Source: Maricaulaceae bacterium EIL42A08
GTDB taxonomy: Bacteria; Pseudomonadota; Alphaproteobacteria; Caulobacterales; Maricaulaceae
Assembly (NCBI GenBank): GCA_024178355.1
Contig: JAMZNZ010000002.1
Location: 849,501-913,500, forward strand
Reading direction: 5' to 3'
DNA: 64,000 nt
Positions 41,972 to 58,602 of this stretch are shown in pieces (within the stretch, counting starts at the first letter, position 1; each line of letters opens with the position of its first letter). The notes under the pieces are model-generated. The model was not told the DNA's origin. It searched no databases and saw nothing but the letters and a program-made list of their open reading frames with translations. A program made the position numbers and the translations under genes.

Positions 41972-42015
41972 AAGCGTCGCTATGGCCAGCCTGATTGTGT
42001 GCGACGAATTGGGTC

Positions 42016-42522
42016 CTAGAACGGGATGTCGTCGTCGAGGGTATCGGAGGAGAAGTCTTCCTTCGGGGCGTCCATCTGGCGCTGACCACCGCCACCTCCG
42101 CCAGAGCGATCGTCCATGCGGTTGCCGCCGCCATAGCCGCCACCGCCCATGCGGTCGCCGCCACCTTCGCCGCGCCCGTCCAGCATGGTCAGCTCGCCGC
42201 GATAGCGTTGGAGCACGACTTCGGTTGTGTAGCGATCATTGCCGTCGCGGTCCTGCCATTTGCGGGTCTGAAGCTGGCCTTCGATATAAACTTTAGAGCC
42301 CTTTTTCAGGTAATTCTCCGCGACCTTGGCCAGATTGTCGTTGAAGATCACGACATTGTGCCACTCGGTCTTCTCACGGCGCTCACCGGTAGACTTGTCG
42401 CGCCAGCTTTCGCCGGTGGCGATGCGCAGATTGACCACAGGGTCGCCGCTATTCATGCGGCGCACTTCCGGGTCCGCTCCCAGATTGCCCACCAGGATCA
42501 CCTTGTTCACACTACCCGCCAT
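42016..42522 (-). CDS. ssb: Single-stranded DNA-binding protein
   Basis: A 168-residue SSB. Seen: the OB fold ([38 protein letters not shown] in part, [15 protein letters not shown]), a Gly/Asp/Arg-rich linker, and the acidic protein-docking tail DDDIPF. It protects single-stranded DNA and recruits repair and replication proteins. ATG at 42522 has GGGAGA upstream; GTG at 42525 is next to it. Divergent from uvrA with a LexA-type box between them, the classic arrangement. Confidence 0.96.
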
Positions 42523-42556
42523 CACGCGTCTCCCGCTTGTCTTTCGCTGCGCATTT

Positions 42557-42571
42557 GTTCACATTATGTTC
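42557..42571. promoter_or_regulatory. LexA (SOS) box between ssb and uvrA
   Basis: GTTCACATTATGTTC is an exact fit to the alphaproteobacterial LexA operator GTTC-N7-GTTC. It lies 35 bases upstream of ssb and 161 bases upstream of uvrA in the shared 209-base promoter region. Either or both genes should be de-repressed on DNA damage. Confidence 0.85.
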
Positions 42572-42731
42572 ACGCCGTCAATGAGTCGGCGAGTTAAACG
42601 TTAACGAACACGAGCAAAGCCGGGCTGTCCACGCCCCTGCTGCGCGCTGACCTGATTTGATGGTGGATAGCTGGCCCCGGCGGACCTAAATACGTCGGGT
42701 CGCACCCGAAAAACGAGGACGCCGCTGCGCC

Positions 42732-53293: not shown

Positions 53294-55213
53294 ATGAAAT
53301 TCGTAACAAGATTATGTCTTCCACTACTTCTGGCATTGACTGAACCAGCCCTGGCCCAGGTTCCGATTGAACACTTCGCTCGCCTGCCAGCGACACAGGG
53401 CCTTTCGATCTCCCCCGATGGAACCCGCATCGCCTTCATTGTGCACGCTGAGGACCGCCGGCTTATGGTGGTTGAGAACCTGGATACTGGTGAGCAGGTC
53501 GCAGCGGCCGCTGATGATCTAAGGGTTCTCAGCACACGTTGGGCCGGGAATGACACAGTTCTGGCTCGTGTCAGCACCGTTATAGATGTCGATTATGTAC
53601 GCGGTGATATAGACCTCACGGCTTTCATCACCTTCGATGCGGACACGCTGGAGTCCAGAGAACTGATCGAGCGACAGCGCCTGTCAGGAATCAATTTTGA
53701 CTCAAGTCGCATCGCCGGTCGCGACCCACAGAGCGGGCACCTGCTCATGCCTCTTCGCGATCAACGCGGGCGGCTCAATCTCAGTGTTGTGAACCCAGCG
53801 ACAGGAAGCCGAAGCCGAACGATCGCGAGAGGCAGCACAACAACACAATACTGGATCGCAGACCCGGCAGCAGAGCGTTTCGTCGAAGTGCGGTTCTCTC
53901 GTCGGGAAAGTCGCTTCTCAATCATTCTGGAAGAAGGCGCGGGCAACCAGACACTCTACTCGAGAGACGCAGCACTCATGCCGCTTCAGGTGGAGGGATT
54001 TGCCGAGGACGGTGACCTGGTCATCAGCCGAACGTTTAATGCACCGCCCTACACACGCCAGCTTCAACGCCTTGAGCCACAGAGCGGTGAGTTTGGTGAA
54101 GTCCTTTTTCACGACCCGCAATACGACTTTGAGACGGTCAGGTTAGACCACCACTCAGGCCATGTAGCCGGTGTCGTCATCGACAGAGAAAATACAGAAA
54201 CGGTCTGGCTGGATGAGGAACTGGCCCAAAGACAACGCGCGCTTGAAAATGCTTTCCCCGGAATGACGGTTTCGCTGGTTGACTGGAGCGAGGATCGCCA
54301 ACGCTTTGTTGTTCGAACTGAAACGAGCGGGCAGCCTCCAATCTATTCTCTTGTGGACTTTTCGATTTCGGACGCCCGCGCCATCAAGCTGGCTTACCCG
54401 GAACTCTTTGAGGTGCCACTGGCCAGCAGGGAGTTGATTTCCTACACGGCGCGCGATGGCACACAGATCCCCGCCTACCTCGCCGTGCCCGCCGGGGACG
54501 GGCCCAAGTCGTTTGTAATTCTGGCCCACGGAGGTCCAGCGGCGCGCGATCTGGGAGGTTTCGATTACCTCGCTCACTTCCTCGCTGATCGCGGATACGG
54601 TGTTATTCAGCCTCAATTCAGGGGGTCGGGGGGCTTCGGTGTCCGTTGGGAAATTGCTGGACGTGGCGAGTGGGGCACAGGCCTCATGCAAACAGATGTC
54701 AGCGATGCCGTCGCTTATCTAATGGATGAGGGCCTGGCATCACAGGTGTGCATCGTTGGAGCCAGTTATGGTGGATATGCAGCCATGGCCGGCGCGGCGT
54801 TCACACCGGACCTTTATGACTGCGCCATCTCCATCAATGGGGTTAGCGATCTGCCACAGTTCCTTGATTATGTAAGCGACCGTTTTGGGACCGACTCCCA
54901 GGCTGTCCGATACTGGAACCGGTCCATCTCTGGCTCTATCAGCGAGCGCGCCAGCATGGACGCGCTCACCAGCGCGTCTCCAAGTCGCCAGGCCGCAGCG
55001 GTCACAATTCCTGTTCTTCTCCTGCATGGGCAGGACGATACGGTCGTGCCCTTCACCCAGTCGCGACGCATGTCCGACAGCCTCCAGAGGTCTGGGGGCA
55101 ATGTGGAACTCATCGAGCTCCCGGGCGGCGATCACTGGCTTTGGGAATACCAGAGCCGACTACGAGTTCTTCAGGAAATTGAGCGCTTTTTATCGATGCA
55201 TCTGGAGGAATGA
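53294..55213 (+). CDS. S9-family prolyl oligopeptidase-like serine peptidase, exported
   Basis: A 639-residue enzyme. Seen: signal peptide (ending near ALAQVP), a beta-propeller region with WD40/PD40-type repeats (GLSISPDGTRIAFIVHAED), then an alpha/beta-hydrolase domain: ILAHGGPAARDLGGFD, IQPQFRGSGGFG, the nucleophile Ser in VGASYGGYAAMAG, the Asp in LLHGQDDTVVPF, and the His in ELPGGDHWLWE. All three catalytic residues are present. It probably degrades oligopeptides in the periplasm or outside. Convergent with the radical SAM locus, 24 bases away. Confidence 0.9.
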   Translation: MKFVTRLCLPLLLALTEPALAQVPIEHFARLPATQGLSISPDGTRIAFIVHAEDRRLMVVENLDTGEQVAAAADDLRVLSTRWAGNDTVLARVSTVIDVDYVRGDIDLTAFITFDADTLESRELIERQRLSGINFDSSRIAGRDPQSGHLLMPLRDQRGRLNLSVVNPATGSRSRTIARGSTTTQYWIADPAAERFVEVRFSRRESRFSIILEEGAGNQTLYSRDAALMPLQVEGFAEDGDLVISRTFNAPPYTRQLQRLEPQSGEFGEVLFHDPQYDFETVRLDHHSGHVAGVVIDRENTETVWLDEELAQRQRALENAFPGMTVSLVDWSEDRQRFVVRTETSGQPPIYSLVDFSISDARAIKLAYPELFEVPLASRELISYTARDGTQIPAYLAVPAGDGPKSFVILAHGGPAARDLGGFDYLAHFLADRGYGVIQPQFRGSGGFGVRWEIAGRGEWGTGLMQTDVSDAVAYLMDEGLASQVCIVGASYGGYAAMAGAAFTPDLYDCAISINGVSDLPQFLDYVSDRFGTDSQAVRYWNRSISGSISERASMDALTSASPSRQAAAVTIPVLLLHGQDDTVVPFTQSRRMSDSLQRSGGNVELIELPGGDHWLWEYQSRLRVLQEIERFLSMHLEE

Positions 55214-55237
55214 ACCGCCAGCTGGCATGCGCAATGA

Positions 55238-56005
55238 TCAGGCCGCTGCCTCGATAAGGCGAACAATCGTGGCGATGTGCGCAACACAAACATCTCCGTG
55301 TGACTGTTCCAGCAGATCATCATCGATCTCCGGGCCCTGATGGTGCCAATCGGCCAAAGGCGACTGATCGATCACTTCAGCAAGTTGATCAGAATCGGCC
55401 AGGTTGCCTAAGGCTCCCACGCCGGTTTCCATCATGGCCTGACAACCAAATACATCACCACGATCATCCACACAGAGCATAAGCCGGCCAGCACACGCCT
55501 TGTCCATGGAGCCAGCACGAGCCGCCGCCGGGTTGAAGCAGGTGGCCCCCCAGGTCGATATTTTTTCTGATGCTAAAACACGCGAGACATCGTCTCCGCT
55601 CAAATCCATGAAATTGATCGTCAGGTTCAGGAAATCAGCTTCGCAACGGTCGAGGGCCTCAAGAAACAGGTCAACACTCTCCTCGAAAAGATTAATGGTT
55701 AGCGGCAGGCGTCGATAGGCGACAAGCCCTTCGGCCAGAGCCTGCGCACCGACATCGCCATCAATTTTGATGTGTACGGTTGCCAGCCGAGAGGAGAGCT
55801 GCGGTGTGGAAACAAGGTCCAAAAACCGGTCAGCCGGACTCAAATCTCTAAAAACAATAGACTTTTCAGAGAAATGCTCGACAAGACGATTGAGCCCAGC
55901 CAGAGCTTTAGGGTTGCCCTCGCACAGGCGAAGGGCCCCACCAAGCACGAGGACGCGCGAAAAAAAGGTCAGGCCGGCTCGGCGTTGAAGTAAGAGGTTG
56001 CCCAC
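55238..56005 (-). CDS. SPASM-like partner protein without radical SAM motif
   Basis: About 255 residues from GTG at 56005; a GTG at 55948 would give 236 and avoid the overlap with the upstream gene. Seen: no CxxxCxxC anywhere; a middle with VHIKIDGDVGAQ, PLTINLFEESVDLFLEALDRCE and NLTINFMDLSGDDV that looks like a partial TIM-barrel; then C171-x16-C188 with GRLMLCVDDRGDVFGC, the same spacing and layout as C212-x16-C229 in the adjacent radical SAM protein; a last Cys at 240 (GDVCVAHI). It overlaps the radical SAM gene and is probably a non-catalytic companion or recognition subunit; that role is inference. Confidence 0.5.
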   Translation of the reverse strand: MGNLLLQRRAGLTFFSRVLVLGGALRLCEGNPKALAGLNRLVEHFSEKSIVFRDLSPADRFLDLVSTPQLSSRLATVHIKIDGDVGAQALAEGLVAYRRLPLTINLFEESVDLFLEALDRCEADFLNLTINFMDLSGDDVSRVLASEKISTWGATCFNPAAARAGSMDKACAGRLMLCVDDRGDVFGCQAMMETGVGALGNLADSDQLAEVIDQSPLADWHHQGPEIDDDLLEQSHGDVCVAHIATIVRLIEAAA

Positions 56006-56976
56006 TCAACGACACTCTCCTTTTCTACAACTTCGAGAACACGCTTGACCGCATTTGCCTTCTCAGGGTCAGAAAACACCGTCCAGCAGGCATGGCACGG
56101 GCCCAGGAAGGCGTCGTCTTCGGGCACGTCGAAACCCTGCTCTCTCAACAACTCAAGGAAGGAGCGCGAGCCGCGTCTGACCAGATCAGACAAAAGCGCG
56201 GATTCATTCATTCGCTCAACAATGTCCACAAGCCGATCGGTACGCACATCCCCAAAACACAGGGCCTCGGTCTGGTCAGCACCAGAACAGCACGGAGCGA
56301 CCTTACCCGCCGGATTGATCGTCAAATTCAGATTCGACATGCAGCCGGCATCAAGATTCTGACCACCATAAAGCTCATCATGGGGAAATTCTTCGGCGGC
56401 TTTTCCGGTCGGGAGCACGTTACCGATAGCTATCTCATCCAGAGCTTCGATTATGTCACGGCCCAGCATGTCGAATGCTTCGTGACCTCGGACAGATTTG
56501 GTTGTGAGCAGACGCAAATTGGTCTCGACACCTGCACGGTGAAGCGCACGGATCGCGGTGGCCACACGTTCGGCCTTCACATAAGGCGCATGCCACACAT
56601 CCCAACTGATTTCCATCTGGGACAGGCCAGCCTCAGCAAGCTTTTCAGCCACCTGATTTGCACGGGTCTCGCTCACGCCCCAAAAGCAGTTGGAAACGGC
56701 GGTCACATCGCGAAAGCCGAGCTGCCTGGCGTAAGCGATGACGCCATACATCATCTGCTGGTCCAGAAAGCCTTCCCCGCCGCCAAAATGGACGCGGTCG
56801 GGCAGACCCGGAATATTCCGGGCCTGCTCGAGCACACTAATCGTATCTTCAAGCTTGAGCGCAACGTCCCCGACATAGGTCGATCCCTTGGGGCCGGCCG
56901 CCTGGTAGCACATCTTGCATTGCGCGTTACATCGCGACGTAAGCTCAAAGACAATGGCGTTAAAGCTCAGGCTCAT
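55969..56976 (-). CDS. Radical SAM/SPASM protein (putative peptide-modifying maturase)
   Basis: 335 residues. Seen: SRCNAQCKMCYQ with the 4Fe-4S cysteines C16, C20, C23; the SAM-binding FGGGEGFLD (residues 64-72); EISWDVWHAPYV; GNVLPTGKAAEE; then a SPASM-like C-terminal region with C212, C229, C230, C240, and CHAC at 294-297. This combination is typical of enzymes that modify ribosomally made peptides. ATG at 56976 overlaps the upstream stop (ATGA), so the frame extension to 57021 is rejected. It sits between a leader-bearing protein and a SPASM-like partner. The chemistry cannot be deduced. Confidence 0.85.
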   Translation of the reverse strand: MSLSFNAIVFELTSRCNAQCKMCYQAAGPKGSTYVGDVALKLEDTISVLEQARNIPGLPDRVHFGGGEGFLDQQMMYGVIAYARQLGFRDVTAVSNCFWGVSETRANQVAEKLAEAGLSQMEISWDVWHAPYVKAERVATAIRALHRAGVETNLRLLTTKSVRGHEAFDMLGRDIIEALDEIAIGNVLPTGKAAEEFPHDELYGGQNLDAGCMSNLNLTINPAGKVAPCCSGADQTEALCFGDVRTDRLVDIVERMNESALLSDLVRRGSRSFLELLREQGFDVPEDDAFLGPCHACWTVFSDPEKANAVKRVLEVVEKESVVEWATSYFNAEPA

Positions 56977-57506
56977 TTGCGGGTCTTCAAGGTCCGCGAA
57001 ATCACCCGCATATCGGGACACAGGAACTCATTCCTGACGACAAAATCTCGCACGCCCGTGAAGCGGCTCGGACCAAGCTCGATATCGCGCCCCGCCTGGG
57101 CGCTCAACCAATTTGTGGCCATGTATGTCGTGGAGGCTGCACTCACCACGGCGGCGGCTGCACTGACCACAGCTGCGACAGCCACAACGGTCGCGGCCTG
57201 GGCGGGCCCTCCGGGAACCCCTTCAATACCGCCTCCCACACGAAAGTCTTCCGGGACCGGGTCGATCCAACCTGGATCCTTGATTGGAATCTTAAGCTCT
57301 TCGAGGACTTCGTTACGATACCCTTGGGACGCCATCTGGCCTTCGATCTCAAGGAAGCGATCGCGCATATGGGACCCAAACCCCTTATCGAGCTTTACCC
57401 CAAGAGAGTCAGCGTACTCTTCAGGATCAGCGATGAATAACGCGCGGTCAGCCTTGGAACTGGCGGCACGGCTTATGAGTTCAATTTGTTCTGTAGCATC
57501 TGACAT
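56973..57506 (-). CDS. Putative RiPP-type precursor or substrate protein with leader-like N-terminus and Ala/Val-rich core
   Basis: A 177-residue protein. Seen: an N-terminal region (residues 20-41, DRALFIADPEEYADSLGVKLDK) with the 'D-P-x-x-Y-a-x-x-L-G-v' pattern seen in NHLP/Nif11-type leader peptides, a linker with WIDPVPEDFRVGGGIEG, GG at 99-100, then a hydrophobic Ala/Val-rich stretch (101-131) ending STTYMATNW, and a charged C-terminus with one Cys (FLCPDM). GGAG precedes the ATG. Translation is coupled to the radical SAM gene. Alternatives: a membrane-inserted small protein, or a chaperone subunit. No homolog recognised. Confidence 0.55.
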   Translation of the reverse strand: MSDATEQIELISRAASSKADRALFIADPEEYADSLGVKLDKGFGSHMRDRFLEIEGQMASQGYRNEVLEELKIPIKDPGWIDPVPEDFRVGGGIEGVPGGPAQAATVVAVAAVVSAAAAVVSAASTTYMATNWLSAQAGRDIELGPSRFTGVRDFVVRNEFLCPDMRVISRTLKTRK

Positions 57507-57756
57507 GTCCGTCTCCGTATAAATAACAAACCCGAGGCTGCGGAAGACGGACGCAGAACACTCCCGAAAAGATCCTCACAAAAGCCTTAGATCAATAATG
57601 GCTTTGCACGCAAGGGTATTATTGGCAAAAGTATAAGTCGGTTAATTATGACCTACGGAACGATATTTTTTTATTTACAATGCACTAGACTACGCGATGC
57701 GTAACGGGCGTCGAGAAAAACCCTTGCCTCAATGCCCGCTAAACGCGAACTTCTGT
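57507..57756. promoter_or_regulatory. A/T-rich upstream region of the radical SAM locus with an inverted repeat
   Basis: 250 bases without a gene, visibly richer in A/T than the surroundings. It carries CAATAAT (57593-57599) and ATTATTG (57618-57624), a perfect 7-bp inverted repeat around an 18-base centre that itself contains TTGCACGCAA-like symmetry. Minus-strand promoter elements are likely here, and the Shine-Dalgarno sequence GGAG stands 7 bases before the precursor start. I cannot name a regulator. Confidence 0.45.
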
Positions 57757-58602
57757 CTAGACCCGCCCAGTTAAACTCGCCCACGTCAAACGCCACTGGC
57801 GGCTCGCCAGGGGGCGGTCGACGACTTCGCGATACGGGTCTGACACTCTCTTGAGAGCCTGCAGATAGCCAGATGCGAGCCCGGCATAGCCAACGGCAGG
57901 GAACACATCCGCAGGCAGGCTGGAGCGCGTACGGGTCAACATGGCGCGGGCATCTTCAGCTTCCTTCATCAGGCCTGGCAGCGCGGCTTTGACCGCCTCC
58001 GGCCTGCGCCCCTTGGCCAGATCAATTTCGGTCAGCTCGGAGGCAGCCAGTTCATCGGCACTGAAAGGCGGTCGTCCAGCTTCGCACAAGGCTGGAAAGG
58101 CCCGCAGAAGACCGACAAAGCCCCAAAGCCGCCCGGCCGCCATGATGGCTGCGCCTGGCTCACCGCCAAGATCGAGGTCTGGCTTTAACAGTCGGGCCGC
58201 TGCGCGCATCAGCGTCACGGCGGCCCGGTCCACATAGTCGCGGCGATCGTCTCTGGTGGGGAATGGTCCCTGCCCCAGATCTGCGGCCCGTGCTTCGACC
58301 AGAGCTGTCAGCGTGTCCCGGTCCGGCCCGCCGGGCGCCTCGCGCAGCTCTGACAGCGCTTCATAGATGTCATGGCGGCGAACTTTGGGCGGCTCGGCAA
58401 ACAGATCGGCCACCGCATCGCGGGCCCAGGCCAGGCGCATTTCGCCGACCACCGCTTCGCTCACCGTGTCGGGGACCTTGGCGATTTCATGATAAAACGC
58501 ATACAGCGTGAACAGCCGCCCCCGCAGCTCAGGCGGCGCAAACAGCGCAGCCATACGCCGATCCGGATCGGTTTTCTGCAGTAAGGCGTCGAAATCTGTC
58601 AC
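57757..58602 (-). CDS. Squalene/phytoene synthase-family protein (NDUFAF6-like)
   Basis: A 281-residue helical protein. Seen: LFTLYAFYHEIAKVPDTVSE and EMRLAWARDAVADLF at the position of the first Asp-rich region, but the DxxxD motif of true prenyl synthases is not intact (YHEIAKVPD); DYVDRAAVTLMRAAARLL and GRLWGFVGLLRAFPAL follow. This non-catalytic branch includes mitochondrial NDUFAF6, an assembly factor for respiratory complex I, whose alphaproteobacterial homologs often stand near secDF and an MTH938 gene, as here. A carotenoid or hopanoid enzyme is less likely. Confidence 0.75.
   Translation of the reverse strand: MTDFDALLQKTDPDRRMAALFAPPELRGRLFTLYAFYHEIAKVPDTVSEAVVGEMRLAWARDAVADLFAEPPKVRRHDIYEALSELREAPGGPDRDTLTALVEARAADLGQGPFPTRDDRRDYVDRAAVTLMRAAARLLKPDLDLGGEPGAAIMAAGRLWGFVGLLRAFPALCEAGRPPFSADELAASELTEIDLAKGRRPEAVKAALPGLMKEAEDARAMLTRTRSSLPADVFPAVGYAGLASGYLQALKRVSDPYREVVDRPLASRQWRLTWASLTGRV

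Follow-up and report, generated by a model that had tools for sequence, protein, structure and literature searches.

A probable epimerase-type RiPP cassette with a predicted pseudo-radical-SAM partner in Maricaulaceae bacterium EIL42A08

Analysis of a 64,000-nucleotide stretch of Maricaulaceae bacterium EIL42A08 (GenBank assembly GCA_024178355.1, contig JAMZNZ010000002.1, positions 849,501 to 913,500; hereafter the window, whose own numbering is used for positions) revealed three minus-strand genes that are well supported as an undescribed peptide-modification locus, of the kind that gives rise to ribosomally synthesised and post-translationally modified peptides (RiPPs). We consider it likely that the locus is an epimerase-type cassette, composed of a precursor with an NHLP-like leader, a radical S-adenosylmethionine (SAM)/SPASM enzyme resembling the epipeptide epimerase EpeE (YydG), and a pseudo-radical-SAM partner. 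The same set is present, patchily, in scattered and distantly related bacteria, and is unnamed in the family libraries scanned.

Organization of the cassette

The original prediction, made from the sequence alone, described a tightly coupled substrate gene, maturase gene and SPASM-like partner gene, and this layout was borne out: the ATG of the enzyme gene overlaps the stop of the precursor gene as ATGA (56973-56976). A further overlap, of 37 bases (55969-56005), links the enzyme gene to the partner gene. The enzyme may also be read as a 350-residue protein from an upstream GTG. No peptidase, ABC transporter or exporter gene is located inside the three-gene cassette. Its features, all on the minus strand, are as follows.

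56973..57506, minus strand: precursor gene, 177 amino acids, ATG start, with leader, core and tail (held-out profile; alignment with 12 relatives)
57327..57506, minus strand: leader region, residues 1-60, a predicted helical bundle (block mean predicted local distance difference test score, pLDDT, 86-96)
57132..57203, minus strand: Ala/Val-rich core, about residues 102-125, near AAVVxAxAAVVxA (alignment)
56976..57131, minus strand: C-terminal tail, residues 126-177, of low model confidence
55969..56976, minus strand: EpeE/YydG-like radical SAM/SPASM enzyme, 335 amino acids, probable peptide epimerase
56908..56931, minus strand: CNAQCKMC, the CX3CX2C radical-SAM cluster motif, enzyme residues 16-23
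56287..56292, minus strand: enzyme Cys229-Cys230, of which Cys230 is putatively equated with EpeE Cys223
55238..56005, minus strand: partner, a degenerate radical-SAM/SPASM paralogue without CX3CX2C, 255 amino acids, GTG start

The enzyme resembles EpeE/YydG over its full length

Sequence comparison places the enzyme as a full-length homologue of EpeE/YydG, a kinship that the original prediction had missed, while the motifs it had listed are all present: CNAQCKMC at residues 16-23, GGGEGF at 65-70, and the SPASM-type cysteines C212, C229, C230, C294 and C297. Among the NCBIfam models, TIGR04078 fits the window enzyme best (E 3.1e-31, 109 bits; E 3.7e-31, 108.7 bits for the 350-residue reading). 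It matches 16/16 members of our enzyme alignment A5 at E <= 1e-5, including the enzymes of Halocatena and Allochromatium, which are more distant. A phmmer comparison with the solved EpeE/YydG chain gave an E-value of 3.1e-23 over residues 8-312, and the family profile matched the same protein at 5.1e-48. PADLOC viperin matches to the enzyme span only the radical-SAM core, and a viperin-like defence function was rejected.

Alignment to 8ai1 indicates that the PCC motif is kept in the window enzyme. The chain in 8ai3-8ai5 has Ala where 8ai1 has the second Cys of this motif, and the window residue at that column is Cys230. Because the Cys/Ala change between the structures falls there, we take the column as the probable equivalent of EpeE Cys223, which a passage in PMC8326336 presents as the proposed hydrogen-atom donor; the same source gives Val36 and Ile44 as the EpeE targets. 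Furthermore, eight cysteines (16, 20, 23, 212, 229, 230, 294 and 297) are invariant in 15/15 enzymes, a set consisting of the window enzyme, two from Tropicibacter, and those of loci L007-L016, L081 and L082.

The three-part set recurs in distant relatives

Relatives were sought in 84,980 species genomes by a scan that finds only genomes with one of two exact motif patterns, and which consequently misses variants, among them two of the loci described below. A profile of three enzymes yielded 25 loci, comprising 13 near-full-length ones with 32-45% identity and 12 weak partial matches. The 13 derive from Elusimicrobia, Loktanella, Sphingobacterium, Vibrio penaeicida (two), Paenibacillus, Acidobacteriaceae, Parvularcula, Roseibium, Rhodoferax and Fibrobacter succinogenes (three), and all of them (13/13) carry a precursor-like open reading frame (ORF) and a partner gene near the enzyme gene. 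The partner is divergent in L012 and the precursor in L014, while L015 has both of them downstream of its enzyme gene. The alignments do not include L018 and L019, which are near duplicates, and the held-out tests described below were run without L017-L019. The 12 weak matches (L020-L031) were likewise excluded from the alignments and covered by the Ala/Val and leader-motif scans only; the former found nothing in them, and the latter gave two matches (L020, L027) that were judged not to be precursor-like.

In the 14 system-bearing genomes, the precursor model produced one match each, at the cluster. Since 12 of these genomes had trained the model, and L018 and L019 are near copies, only the uniqueness of the match is informative. 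A wider sample of 398 genomes of the phylum gave three matches to the precursor model at E <= 1e-4, namely our own and two new ones, with the enzyme gene adjoining in all; the enzyme model, at E <= 1e-45, returned the same three and a fourth genome (G591). Enzyme, precursor and partner occur together in 4/4 of the genomes found with the enzyme model. Profile searches of the three new stretches gave E-values of 2e-116 or better for the enzyme, 1.8e-38 or better for the partner, and 3e-12, 4e-5 and 5e-5 for the precursor. In G591, the precursor is split by a stretch of N, and its leader and core can be read on one side of the gap. Among 72,556 plasmid records, the precursor and the partner of L011 each match only a Tropicibacter plasmid, and this record holds the enzyme gene. 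No precursor homologue without a radical SAM gene was found in the 14 system-bearing genomes, the 398 phylum genomes or the plasmid records. Together with the lack of a confident unrelated enzyme fold for the precursor (see below), the co-occurrence supports the substrate-maturase pairing that had originally been proposed.

Searches with single sequences recovered only our own copy, both for the enzyme (385 genomes of the class, own included, E <= 1e-25) and for the precursor (99 genomes, own included), and two viral-contig scans revealed no relatives.

The Tropicibacter oceani plasmid (L003/L006) encodes two enzymes, two partners and two precursors; this 49-kb plasmid also carries a third radical SAM gene, a phosphotransferase gene, and genes for trypsin-like and M23-type peptidases. 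Genes for APH-like phosphotransferases are found near L006, L010, L011 and L014, but not in the window cassette. Allochromatium, whose enzyme shares 29% identity, was rejected as a member of the system, its neighbouring genes being unlike the precursor/partner cassette. On Allochromatium vinosum plasmid pALVIN01 (L004, 3435-7014), the distant EpeE-like gene and a second radical SAM gene are positioned between cmr6 and csm6 in a type III CRISPR locus. Finally, a plasmid of the haloarchaeon Halocatena salina (L005, 4455-6056) harbours a distant EpeE-like enzyme gene with a 177-residue ORF whose final segment is rich in Ala/Val and contains Tyr; the annotated gene that follows downstream encodes a tetratricopeptide-repeat protein rather than a cassette-type partner. 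This pair is perhaps a convergent or ancestral version.

The precursors form a family visible by profiles

All of the precursor features first reported are present in the 177-residue protein: DPEEYADSLG at residues 27-36, GG at 99-100 (with GGG also at 91-93), and an Ala/Val-rich segment. The leader motif of the family may be written F-x2-[DNS]-P...G-[VIL]-x-[LF], the window copy being FIADPEEYADSLGVKL. In the precursor alignment (A4), a core close to AAVVxAxAAVVxA is observed in 11/13 sequences; the other two, from Fibrobacter, have a short Ile/Val/Pro core in place of Ala/Val. A scan for the leader motif in the window and L003-L031 (1964 ORFs) gave 19 matches, 15 of them precursors (one Tropicibacter precursor counted twice) and four others, and failed to pick the precursors of L007 and L013.

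A profile built from the 14 other precursors identified the window precursor at E 1.6e-21, with a runner-up at 0.062, among 905 six-frame segments of the window. Such held-out profiles recovered the left-out precursor in 15/15 loci, the weakest at E 1.6e-8 (L014); in L006, the other Tropicibacter copy, which was part of the training set, ranked first and the left-out precursor second. Composition is less telling: of the 305 window ORFs of at least 60 residues, one reaches 21 Ala/Val/Ile in 30 and three, including the precursor, reach 20. As Ala/Val-richness is thus not beyond chance in the window, the case for the precursor rests on homology. The ORF with the highest count encodes 200 residues at 41995-42597 on the plus strand, with 21/30 Ala/Val/Ile against the 20/30 of the precursor core.

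The cores of the new loci are Ala/Ser-rich and one bears an 11-residue repeat; in L082 (1480-1998, and at the same place in L089), the tandem repeat DAASSVADIAT is present in two exact copies and one copy with a single change. Locus L088 encodes two precursors of 43% identity, with similar leaders and different cores.

The precursor family was not recognised when the window was first read, and Pfam and NCBIfam scans of the precursors likewise gave no family at its cut-off. PHROGs returned one chance-level match (E 0.013) for the window precursor, and PADLOC nothing for precursor or partner. Plain BLAST was negative between the window precursor and a Tropicibacter precursor, and also among partners, so that these kinships are visible by profiles only. 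Against PDB sequences, the precursor profile gave 49 low-level matches, which we take as composition noise; the best (E 5.8e-4) is presumably a designed protein, judging by the style of its name.

The leader may be of the NHLP kind

The structural model of the precursor is confident only over about residues 1-60, where a bundle of four helices is predicted. Foldseek returned 11 hits at E <= 10, and the top four (E 1.1-3.4) consist of three Os1348 chains and one proteusin precursor. The 177-residue protein was thus given no confident unrelated enzyme fold, its best PDB matches being RiPP-leader proteins, albeit weak ones. At the profile level, 4/13 precursors match NF038399, the Os1348-type NHLP model (best E 0.0023, 18 bits against a cut-off of 40), and 1/13 matches TIGR03793 at E <= 1, below its cut-off. 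On the strength of the fold matches and the four weak Os1348-type matches, a kinship of the leader to NHLP leaders appears likely but unproven.

A double-Gly cleavage site with C39-type export was considered and rejected, since GG 99-100 is not conserved in the relatives and the cassette is without a transporter.

The partner as a degenerate radical-SAM/SPASM paralogue

The third protein had been described as repeating part of the SPASM pattern, and C171, C188, C240 and H243 (window numbering) are indeed kept in 13/13 partners. What had been missed is that, by profile and structure comparison, it is a degenerate radical-SAM/SPASM paralogue. CX3CX2C is present in 0/13 partners, and a profile-profile comparison of partner and enzyme gave a probability of 96% (E 3.5e-9, 191 columns). 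The conserved C/C/C/H set is one candidate iron-sulphur (Fe-S) site.

The model of the partner (pLDDT 71, predicted template modelling score 0.67) has strands alternating with helices and an end part that aligns with SPASM. In a Foldseek search, SuiB chains take the first three places (best E 4.7e-4, with a TM-score by query of 0.42) and PqqE the fourth (2.0e-3). An entry for sactipeptide maturation, 5why, ranks eighth and SkfB tenth, and unrelated entries of TIM-barrel and Rossmann-like type are interspersed at similar E-values. PHROGs gave no match for the two partners tried.

Held-out profiles recovered the partner in 13/13 loci, the window partner being the weakest (E 3.3e-11); for L003 and L006, the top match is the other Tropicibacter copy. 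In 12/13 loci, these profiles also match an enzyme of the same locus more weakly (E 1.2e-7 to 0.02). Furthermore, enzyme and partner distances are correlated (r 0.62, n=13; 0/5000 permutations as high), as would be expected if both travel together, which by itself is no proof of contact.

Proposed mechanism and alternatives

In the mechanism that we propose, the product of gene 1 would be a precursor in which a folded, NHLP-like helical leader precedes an Ala/Val-rich core and a tail, and the leader would bind an enzyme-partner pair. A 5'-deoxyadenosyl radical generated by the gene 2 enzyme would then remove the alpha-hydrogen from residues of the core (probably Val and/or Ala), and Cys230 would give a hydrogen back from the other face, resulting in D-residues. 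The partner, which lacks the SAM-cleaving cluster motif, would pair with the enzyme; its contribution may be leader binding, a hold on the hydrophobic core, or the transfer of electrons or hydrogen to Cys230. To remove the leader and export the product, the strain would depend on proteins encoded outside the cassette. The gene structure, the homologies, the conserved residues, the co-occurrence and the patchy presence are directly observed, whereas epimerisation, its sites, the partner role and any bioactivity of the product are inferred.

Several observations weigh against this interpretation. The window enzyme scores 109 bits where the curated TIGR04078 cut-off is 300, and so falls outside that epimerase family, and no assay on its subfamily was reported among the open-access matches listed. 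The leader fold has weak Foldseek E-values; of 13 precursors, four match NHLP-clan models at E <= 1 and none at the cut-off, and the window precursor matches neither NF038399 nor TIGR03793. The fold support for the partner is middling, with the modest pLDDT given above and TM-scores of at most 0.42, and the window copy, a short protein, diverges most, with 41 bits in the held-out test against at least 113 in the other 12. The precursor model (A4) overlooks the second L088 precursor. Finally, EpeE acts on Val and Ile, whereas two Ala/Ser-rich cores of the new loci have few or moderate Val (beyond position 90, 3 of 70 residues and 9 of 82), and since cores vary between loci (Ala/Ser-rich in some, Ile/Val/Pro in Fibrobacter), a single residue specificity is not established.

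The variation of the cores, together with the low family score of the enzyme, would also fit a RiPP locus with a different radical chemistry, in which C-C or other bonds are formed on Val/Ala side chains (giving cyclopropylglycine, for example, as TvgB does) instead of D-residues. A passage in PMC9062424 describes radical SAM/SPASM enzymes, TvgB among them, that perform other reactions on Val-containing repeats. We regard this outcome as unlikely in view of the specific full-length EpeE kinship, the putative hydrogen-donor cysteine in 15/15 enzymes, and a window core that contains no Cys for thioether chemistry.

It is similarly doubtful that the 177-residue protein stays uncut, serving as a small membrane protein of helical structure that carries the modifications on its Ala/Val-rich helix in the mature form. 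Such a reading would fit the single long helix (102-140) predicted for the core at low confidence, the long tail of 52 residues, which in four relatives shares a GLG motif, and the lack of a leader protease or exporter in the three-gene cassette. Pointing the other way are the similar leaders with different cores, even for two precursors in one locus (L088), and the peptidase genes beside some relatives, trypsin-like near L003 and L008 and M23-type near L003/L006, L012 and L015. A chance arrangement of a radical SAM gene beside unrelated hypothetical ORFs, for which one could cite only that the window is not short of Ala/Val-rich stretches, is refuted by the three-part set in 13/13 distant relatives, the held-out profile recovery and the co-occurrence in the 398-genome sample.

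The epimerase-type reading could be extended to a distinct RiPP class, with a two-subunit radical epimerase, an obligatory, catalytically dead Fe-S partner, and a multi-epimerised, Ala/Val-rich, membrane-spanning beta-helix as its product, a three-gene counterpart of the polytheonamide or gramicidin channels. We give this extension little credence.

The cassette is probably an insertion in this strain

The cassette and its surroundings comprise the following.

55214..57756, no strand assigned: strain-specific stretch, from the S9-type peptidase gene to the squalene/phytoene-synthase-type gene
53294-55213, plus strand: S9-type peptidase gene, flanking the cassette
57757-58602, minus strand: squalene/phytoene-synthase-type gene, flanking the cassette

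A single-sequence search found the precursor in none of 14 congeners. The squalene/phytoene-synthase-type gene is present in 14/14, as is a superoxide dismutase gene on its far side. The cassette-free junction is visible in seven: in four (L067, L068, L072, L076), the near side is abutted by a GidA/TrmFO-type gene, and in three (L069, L071, L073) by an S9-type peptidase gene (40-53% identity). In the other seven, the junction is not visible at the range taken, and L070 has that gene about 1 kb off. Given these junctions without the cassette, an insertion in this strain would be the simplest reading. The S9-type peptidase, occurring at the same place without the cassette, is not evidently part of it.

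Comparison with known systems and implications

The closest known system is the epipeptide system YydF/YydG (now EpeX/EpeE) of Bacillota, with which the window cassette shares an enzyme that is homologous over its length and retains the cysteines of both CX3CX2C and PCC. In the copy of that cluster on a Macrococcus plasmid, a precursor gene of 156 bases and the epimerase gene are followed by peptidase and ABC-transporter genes. In contrast, the window cassette has no short YydF-type precursor, peptidase or ABC transporter, and possesses instead a 177-residue precursor with a predicted folded leader, plus the pseudo-radical-SAM partner.

Proteusins and other NHLP-leader peptides (Os1348, PoyA-type) may be similar in their folded helical leader, a likeness that is predicted here and carries weak E-values; the leader similarity lies under the cut-offs, however, and the best named family of the window enzyme is YydG. 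SPASM-only partners exist elsewhere, such as the GeoRSP one. The pseudo-SAM/SPASM proteins of TIGR04347 are also radical-SAM-like, lack the SAM-cluster motif, and presumably are encoded beside an active radical SAM gene; yet none of the 14 partners matched TIGR04347 at E <= 0.01.

No description of the precursor-enzyme-partner set was found among the open-access matches listed, by title and opening abstract. A passage in PMC9062424 notes 22 unexplored pathways, among which this set could be included. Part of PMC8326336 names two kinds of radical-SAM peptide epimerase, the PoyD-type, enzymes of which kind epimerise proteusins, and EpeE, and calls the resetting of the cysteine radical after a turnover unclear. 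If our interpretation is correct, the cassette would represent a further epimerase family, in distantly related hosts, with a conserved pseudoenzyme partner and mostly Ala/Val cores. It would offer a test bed for the resetting of the cysteine radical at each turnover and for the choice of the residue that is flipped. Furthermore, it would provide a mineable group of probable D-amino-acid peptides.

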